A stretch of DNA of 50,130 nt from contig CAIYHQ010000066.1 of NCBI GenBank assembly GCA_903926075.1, positions 1-50,130 on the forward strand, given 5' to 3'. The DNA comes from an uncultured Methanomicrobiales archaeon. Lineage in GTDB: Archaea; Halobacteriota; Methanomicrobia; Methanomicrobiales; Methanospirillaceae. The notes under the pieces are model-generated. The model worked only from the letters and a program-made list of their open reading frames with translations. It was not told the origin of the DNA and searched no databases. Positions 26,766-36,412 of the stretch are shown here, piece by piece (position 1 is the stretch's first letter; the number at the start of each line of letters is the position of its first letter). Made by a program: the position numbers and the translations under genes.

Positions 26766-26935
26766 TGGGGTCGGTGAGATTTGAACTCACGATCGACGGG
26801 TCTCTCCGATATGTGAAACGGTTCCTCCATCCAATTATGGAATCTGGAAATTATTCCTTCATCATAAAACTGGTGAGGAGTATCACAATAAACACCGCTG
26901 GAGCCCGTTGCCATTCCGGACTAGGCCACGACCCC
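26766..26935 (-). tRNA. trnW: tRNA-Trp (CCA) with an intron
   Basis: Minus-strand tRNA; exon 1 is 26898-26935 and exon 2 is 26766-26801. The acceptor arms GGGGTCG and CGACCCC pair fully, with discriminator A and no encoded CCA. The D stem is GCC/GGC, the anticodon stem is ACGGG/CCCGT, and the loop CTCCAG + A gives anticodon CCA. The T arm is GTGAG TTCAAAT CTCAC. A T run follows the 3' end. The acceptor, anticodon and T stems have no mismatches, so the gene should be functional after splicing. Confidence 0.95.
26802..26897 (-). other. 96-base archaeal intron in tRNA-Trp (after position 37)
   Basis: The intron interrupts the anticodon loop between G37 and A38, the canonical archaeal site. A bulge-helix-bulge can be drawn: anticodon-loop bases CTCC pair with GGAG near the intron 3' end (4 bp), flanked by 3-base bulges AGC and AGA, each cut after AG. 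This is the substrate shape of the tRNA splicing endonuclease. Inside it is an exact box C (ATGATGA). tRNA-Trp introns of other euryarchaea carry C/D guide RNAs for tRNA methylation; here a convincing box D and guide were not found. Confidence 0.85.
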
Positions 26936-35613: not shown

Positions 35614-35623
35614 GTATATAAAA
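35614..35623 (+). promoter_or_regulatory. promoter (TATA box) of the surface lipoprotein gene
   Basis: The sequence gtatataaaa is preceded by purine-rich cgaaat (possible BRE). At the usual spacing transcription would start near 35645, giving a leader of about 20 bases that includes GAGGAG (35652-35657) ahead of the ATG at 35666. It is one of the cleanest promoter/ribosome-site combinations in the window. Confidence 0.6.
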
Positions 35624-35665
35624 GCAATTGAAATAGATCAAGGTTTATTGCGAGGAGATTGTCGC

Positions 35666-36412
35666 ATGGTTGTAAAAAATATCCTTATTGTCGCAGCTGT
35701 TCTTGTATTGGGACTCTGCATAGCAGGTTGTACACAGCAGGCCCCTGTTACCCCTGTCACAAAAGCACCGGTTGAGACTACAATTGCACCTGTTGTCGCC
35801 ACTGAAACTGTAGCCATGGTGACGCTTCCGGTTACAAAACCGATAGAAGCTAATGCCACGGCTGCAGCAGCGAATGAAACGTCAGTTGCAGTATCGAATG
35901 AAACATCTGTAGCAGTATCAAATGTCACGGCTGCAGTATCGAATGAAACGTCAGTTGCAGTAGTGAATGTTACAGCAGCTGCTACTTCTGCTTCGTTGAA
36001 TGTATCAGTAACAAAAACCACTACTACAGTTCTTATCAGAAATGATCCAAAACTTGGTGCAATTCTGACAGATTCTGATGGAAAAACGCTTTACATCTTC
36101 AAGAAAGATCCGGTTGACAACAGTGTGTGCGACAGTTCATGTATCGCGAGCTGGCCGGTCTTCTATTCTTCAAAGGAGATAACGACACCTGACGGAATAA
36201 ACGCTGGTGACTTTAACGTTATAACTCGCGATGACGGTTCAAAACAGACTACATACAAAGGAATGGCTCTATATTACTATTCCGGTGACAAGGCACCTGG
36301 AGATCTGAATGGCGAGGAATACAATAATCTCTGGTATGTAGTAACTGTAAAGGACATTGCAAAGACAACAGCAGCTCCTGTTACAAATACAACAGAAAAG
36401 ACTACAGCATAA
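35666..36412 (+). CDS. secreted lipoprotein with sequon-rich stalk and PF03640-type repeats
   Basis: A 248-residue protein from the ATG at 35666, chosen because GAGGAG precedes it; the frame is open upstream (TTG at 35648) without support. A signal peptide ends in a lipobox (LCIAGC), so it is a lipoprotein. Then comes a Thr/Ala/Val-rich stalk (about 25-120) with repeated NET/NVT sequons, and a C-terminal domain of the 'secreted repeat of unknown function' type (DSDGKTLYIFKKD, CDSSCIASWPVF, GMALYYYSGDKAPGD, LWYVV). It is probably a glycosylated cell-surface protein. The function is unknown; redox or metal roles were proposed for relatives. Confidence 0.85.
   Translation: MVVKNILIVAAVLVLGLCIAGCTQQAPVTPVTKAPVETTIAPVVATETVAMVTLPVTKPIEANATAAAANETSVAVSNETSVAVSNVTAAVSNETSVAVVNVTAAATSASLNVSVTKTTTTVLIRNDPKLGAILTDSDGKTLYIFKKDPVDNSVCDSSCIASWPVFYSSKEITTPDGINAGDFNVITRDDGSKQTTYKGMALYYYSGDKAPGDLNGEEYNNLWYVVTVKDIAKTTAAPVTNTTEKTTA
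35871..35962 (+). repeat. direct repeats in the lipoprotein stalk
   Basis: A 23-base sequence beginning cgaatgaaacgtcagttgca occurs exactly at 35871-35893 and 35940-35962, with degenerate copies between. It encodes the SNETSVAV/SNVTAAV units. The identity at DNA level suggests recent duplication within the coding region. Confidence 0.8.

Follow-up and report, generated by a model that had tools for sequence, protein, structure and literature searches.

A predicted PF03640 surface lipoprotein of a Methanospirillaceae archaeon: an unusually long stalk, rich in sequons and probably N-glycosylated

In a window of 50,130 nucleotides from an uncultured Methanomicrobiales archaeon (the whole stretch of DNA analysed here, contig CAIYHQ010000066.1 of assembly GCA_903926075.1), we find an open reading frame whose product is probably a surface lipoprotein with a PF03640 head; its stalk is exceptionally long, rich in sequons and probably N-glycosylated. 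The account that we favour with moderate confidence is that of an exported, lipid-anchored protein whose stalk, extended by duplication and glycosylated by AglB, holds the PF03640 head near the S-layer.

Results

The anatomy put forward in the initial annotation, a lipoprotein stalk below a C-terminal domain, is borne out: a signal peptide with a lipobox cysteine at position 22 leads through a stalk predicted to be disordered to a folded head (Table 1). The lipobox reads CIAGC at residues 18–22 and follows a hydrophobic signal peptide, both read by eye from the sequence. Low-complexity stalk then occupies residues 22–118 (97 residues) and is predicted to be mostly disordered, with residues 29–108 below pLDDT 50 in the AlphaFold model of the whole protein. 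A start at the TTG at 35648 would add 6 codons. An antisense ORF at 35638-36021 (127 aa) was discounted, since it was taken to mirror the repeats of the coding strand.

Table 1. Features of the lipoprotein gene and its upstream region, in window coordinates.
Feature	Position	Strand	Remarks
TATA-box-like element	35615..35623	+	TATATAAAA
Shine-Dalgarno-like motif	35654..35659	+	GGAGAT, 6 bases ahead of ATG
Lipoprotein gene	35666..36412	+	ATG start, 248 aa plus stop
Signal peptide with lipobox	35666..35731	+	IAG-C, Cys22 the predicted lipidated residue; sequence motif only
Proximal stalk	35732..35851	+	Residues 23-62, Thr/Pro/Val-rich, no sequons
Exact direct repeat, copy 1	35871..35893	+	23 bp
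Exact direct repeat, copy 2	35940..35962	+	23 bp
Sequon-rich stalk	35852..36007	+	Residues 63-114, seven N-X-S/T; modelled as disordered
Head domain	36023..36358	+	Residues 120-231, pair of PF03640 repeats, CxxxC at 155/159; profile match and model
PF03640 matches within head	36047-36163 and 36218-36343	+
C-terminal tail	36359..36409	+	Thr-rich, eighth sequon NTT at residue 241

Upstream of the gene, the element TATATAAAA is preceded by CGAAATCCG and has CGAAA upstream; we take these motifs and GGAGAT to be TATA-box-like, BRE-like and Shine-Dalgarno-like, respectively (CGAAATCCG being the BRE-like one). The arrangement suggests that the lipoprotein gene may be carried on a transcript of its own, between an upstream gene for a DUF1848 protein and a downstream, convergent gene for a DUF5683-type protein. 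A sigma-70-type scan yielded no terminator-like site; as a bacterial promoter model, it was left unused here. Elsewhere in the window, an Rfam tRNA match of 170 bases at 26766-26935 on the minus strand, which the ARAGORN list does not contain, resembles by eye a tRNA-Trp (CCA) interrupted by a large intron, within which lies a TGATGA box.

The seven stalk sequons that the initial annotation had counted are all located within residues 63–114 (NAT 63, NET 70, NET 78, NVT 86, NET 93, NVT 101 and NVS 112); it had overlooked the eighth, in the tail. All seven asparagines of the stalk lie in sequons, as against one of the eight in the 130 residues of head and tail. The spacing described there as regular holds approximately, in that successive sequons are 7, 8, 8, 7, 8 and 11 residues apart, within an array that is degenerate: the tandem repeat has a 24-bp period, 4.6 copies and 73% matches, the copy number being as read in a draft assembly of 134 contigs, the only genome that a search of the genus returned. 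Also confirmed is the exact 23-base repeat 69 bases apart, which is in frame and is accompanied by a second exact repeat of 18 bases (starts 35887 and 35932, 45 bases apart); both spacings are divisible by three. A 61-nt reference copy is found again 69 bp on at 84% identity.

When the 97-residue stalk was shuffled with its composition kept, seven sequons arose in 0 of 20,000 trials (mean 1.8), and shuffling a 56-residue core gave seven in 1 of 20,000; this significance is overstated, because the repeat units descend from one another and their sequon counts are not independent. As a background from the same genome we used 303,764 bases, made up of the window and 20 further stretches and holding 267 ORFs of at least 80 aa; this non-random sample covers about 10% of 3.14 Mb, its contigs having been picked by number except for two picked for their AglB genes. 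Measured per 60-residue stretch, the lipoprotein ORF is the densest in sequons (7) among the 267, extreme but not alone, because two further ORFs reach 6. The product of one is 1,025 residues long and has 47 sequons in total. That of the other is P0001 (L078:17939-19525, minus strand), which has 528 aa, is rich in Cys and of the secreted type, and bears six sequons in its last 32 residues; a Pfam search with it gave no match at E <= 0.01. Lipoprotein stalks from the same genome were rejected as a background, since a crude lipobox filter passed 3 of the 267 ORFs, too few and one of them probably false; two further lipoprotein-like proteins of this genome (L092 and L093) carry sequons without a comparable repeat block.

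Sequons in a protein and AglB in its genome, the sequence features of an AglB N-glycoprotein, are found together here. The genome encodes two STT3/AglB homologues (L040 and L041, at G000:C91 and C110) of 862 and 805 residues, both of which read WWDYG and pass the Pfam STT3 cut-off. Their scores against the NCBIfam archaeal STT3 profile (423.8 and 262.1 bits) lie below the 450-bit full-length cut-off, the scanned parts comprising only 423 and 407 residues. Three DUF3821 proteins, bearing the S-layer signature, are encoded as well. The presence of two AglB-type oligosaccharyltransferases and three DUF3821 proteins makes an N-glycosylated stalk plausible. According to a published study, DUF3821 is a signature of S-layer orthologues in ten methanogen genera (PMC11641113).

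The head scores 88.4 bits with the PF03640 (Lipoprotein_15) profile, for which the cut-off is 24.4, and comes up as two stretches in the genome search. That search turned up no other PF03640 gene in this genome, which is estimated to be 97% complete. With 99.6 bits against the SCO0930 family lipoprotein profile NF040526 the protein falls below the equivalog cut-off of 275. Residues 142–148, LYIFKKD, conform to the YxFxxD-type motif associated with COG4315. A 24-row alignment with 23 bacterial segments has 22 invariant columns, among them L142, Y143, D148, C155, C159, W163 and P164. AlphaFold gives the blocks of the head a mean pLDDT of 79–94 within the whole protein, for which the five models scored 62.7, 60.6, 40, 39 and 38, two being near the best. 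For the domain by itself (window 36011-36361) one model near the best was obtained (90, 66, 54, 51 and 41), the single confident model of the five having pLDDT 90.3 and pTM 0.85. By sequence, the best hit of the head to a solved structure had E 0.25; a Foldseek search of the PDB with the whole-protein and domain-only models returned nothing at E <= 0.001, from which novelty of the fold does not follow, and a second look at the models with VIA gave one row at Z 2.3 and then none.

Across the class, PF03640 was matched at E <= 0.001 in 26 of 232 genomes, and in 24 the score exceeds the family cut-off. Of 28 archaeal loci translated, L064 (the same gene as L005), L065 (a fragment with a stop) and L066 (below the cut-off) were left out; what remains is our own protein and 24 class relatives, which represent 23 of the 25 matching genomes besides ours, a second gene of genome G201 being outside the set. 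Most of the archaeal PF03640 lipoproteins read share a lipobox and a Thr/Pro-rich or other low-complexity linker ahead of the PF03640 repeats. The stalks of the class relatives differ from the one described here: the 21 that are measurable span 9–36 residues and none contains a sequon, against 101 residues and seven sequons for our protein by the same rough measure (about 97 residues by the low-complexity boundaries). The head does not, therefore, need such a stalk. In L045, L055 and L063 the stalk length is not measurable and, by eye, no sequon precedes the head. In L005, many of the 11 sequons sit instead in a C-terminal tail rich in Thr. A phylum-wide draw matched the head in 24 of 392 genomes, and 15 proteins from outside the order, one per matching genome, carry by eye at most two sequons before the LxD motif of the head; in 15 bacterial proteins the count ranges from 0 to 3 over the length read. 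Since the relatives' stalks are short and free of sequons, the long sequon block sets this lineage apart within the genomes read. A scan of the collection for a close relative gave 15 bacterial loci, with no close relative among them.

A search for the stalk within its own genome returned, besides the gene itself, two matches only (E 0.48 and 0.67), and a search of 61 genomes at E <= 1 found five other places (L098–L102), of which four were read, L101 being left out. None of the four was retained as a donor: the matches to L098 and L099 are apparently due to chance and not to kinship, L100 encodes a large protein of surface type, and L102 has a true sequon-rich stalk on an unrelated protein. 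The last, a 290-residue open frame from a genome of the same taxonomic family, has an N-terminal stalk in which all seven asparagines of the first 100 residues lie in sequons. Given P0001 and L102, sequon-packed disordered segments are not new as a kind.

Discussion

We suggest the following route to the surface. The protein would be exported by the Sec route, as the lack of a twin-arginine motif implies, and Cys22 would be lipidated, tethering it to the membrane. AglB may glycosylate several of the stalk sequons; the glycans would make the stalk stiffer, more extended and better protected, and thereby might hold the head some 10–24 nm off the membrane, within the S-layer or close to it. As to its origin, the stalk would have grown by in-frame duplication of 7–8-residue sequon units and then of a 23-residue (69-bp) super-unit. 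Its units read N-A-T-AAAA, N-E-T-SVAVS, N-E-T-SVAVS, N-V-T-AAVS, N-E-T-SVAVV and N-V-T-AAATSAS, which suggests a construction from 7- and 8-residue units and a super-unit repeated at residues 63–85 and 86–108. Every one of the 4 base differences between units 70–77 and 78–85 is synonymous (P ~0.006 under neutrality, in one of four comparisons); selection on the peptide is suggested for this pair only, because the remaining comparisons give 0 synonymous and 2 non-synonymous changes, 3 and 3, and, for the super-unit, 2 and 14.

The same history of duplication could also have produced the sequons as by-products, if a low-complexity Ala/Val/Ser/Thr/Asn spacer grew from a founder unit that happened to hold N-x-T; the sites would then be mostly unused and the stalk just a flexible tether. 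We regard this as unlikely, though deserving of serious weight: it accords with the common descent of the repeat copies, with the sequon-free stalks of all 21 measurable class relatives and with the excess of non-synonymous changes in the super-unit comparison. Against it, all seven sequons retain their N and S/T although X varies among A, E and V and other positions have changed, N112 lies outside the 23-residue super-unit, and the genome has two AglB homologues.

Two further proposals, both of which we hold to be improbable, would make the number of units variable. Stalk length and sequon number might switch if the 23-bp or 18-bp repeats slipped or recombined, much as the initial annotation had envisaged for the repeat number, and the exactness of these repeats and their in-frame spacings would permit it; because the spacings are 69 and 45 bp, a deletion between copies would drop 23 or 15 residues without a frameshift. 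Yet the array as a whole is degenerate, unlike a young, unstable one, and we think such switching quite doubtful. The most speculative proposal, to which we assign the least weight, is a tunable glycan brush, in which sequon units of 7, 8 and 23 residues, added or lost in frame, would set the position of the head relative to the S-layer. The glycosylated stretch, which would lie ~10 to 22 nm above the lipid if each residue spans 0.24 nm, would then be matched to the height of the lattice.

The reach of the stalk can be set against the Methanospirillum hungatei S-layer, which is described as ~9.5 nm high, 12 nm off the membrane and perforated by pores of 5–10 Å (PMC11641113). If each residue spans 0.24 nm, as in the 50-residue spacer that bridges those 12 nm, the stretch of 98 residues between Cys22 and the head would extend to 23.5 nm, whereas the top of the lattice lies at 21.5 nm by these M. 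hungatei figures, which may not fit our host. The stalk could thus be just long enough for the head to stand outside the lattice. Neither a folded head nor a glycosylated chain would be expected to pass through 5–10 Å pores, unless built into the growing lattice. The M. hungatei S-layer protein Mhun_2263 likewise relies on a spacer, a Pro-rich stretch of ~50 residues, which sets a surface domain at 12 nm above the membrane; it differs in having a C-terminal PGF-CTERM anchor and described Ig-like domains, where our protein has an N-terminal lipobox and PF03640 (PMC11641113).

Similarly, Sulfolobus SlaB is membrane-anchored with a glycosylated spacer between its anchor and beta-rich domains, including a serine/threonine-rich, highly glycosylated ST linker (PMC6911244). 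In contrast to our protein, SlaB is an S-layer subunit with a predicted coiled-coil stalk (PMC6911244), whereas the stalk here is modelled as disordered; no helix was modelled in it, but its pLDDT is below 50 and aligned relatives are lacking there. A small filament-subunit surface protein also carries many AglB-type sequons on one protein; its glycans were observed and sit on a folded subunit, whereas here we have sequons only, on a disordered stalk. In the open-licence literature we found no paper on a sequon-repeat stalk attached to PF03640. Searches were made with the terms COG4315, PF03640, SCO0930 and lipoprotein_15, of which COG4315 returned nothing and lipoprotein_15 brought up titles on mostly unrelated subjects.

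A redox or metal role for the head would be a guess. Fusions offer a possible lead to its function: a Paenibacillus protein (L023:4332-5942) combines four PF03640 stretches with a cupredoxin domain, and an archaeal relative (L063:1084-3126) has two PF03640 stretches before a PQQ-type propeller. The stalk described here is of a type unseen in the relatives read, set on a PF03640 head that is itself without a matching solved structure. If its sites are used, it would provide a compact case of N-glycans building a spacer in a methanogen-type archaeon.
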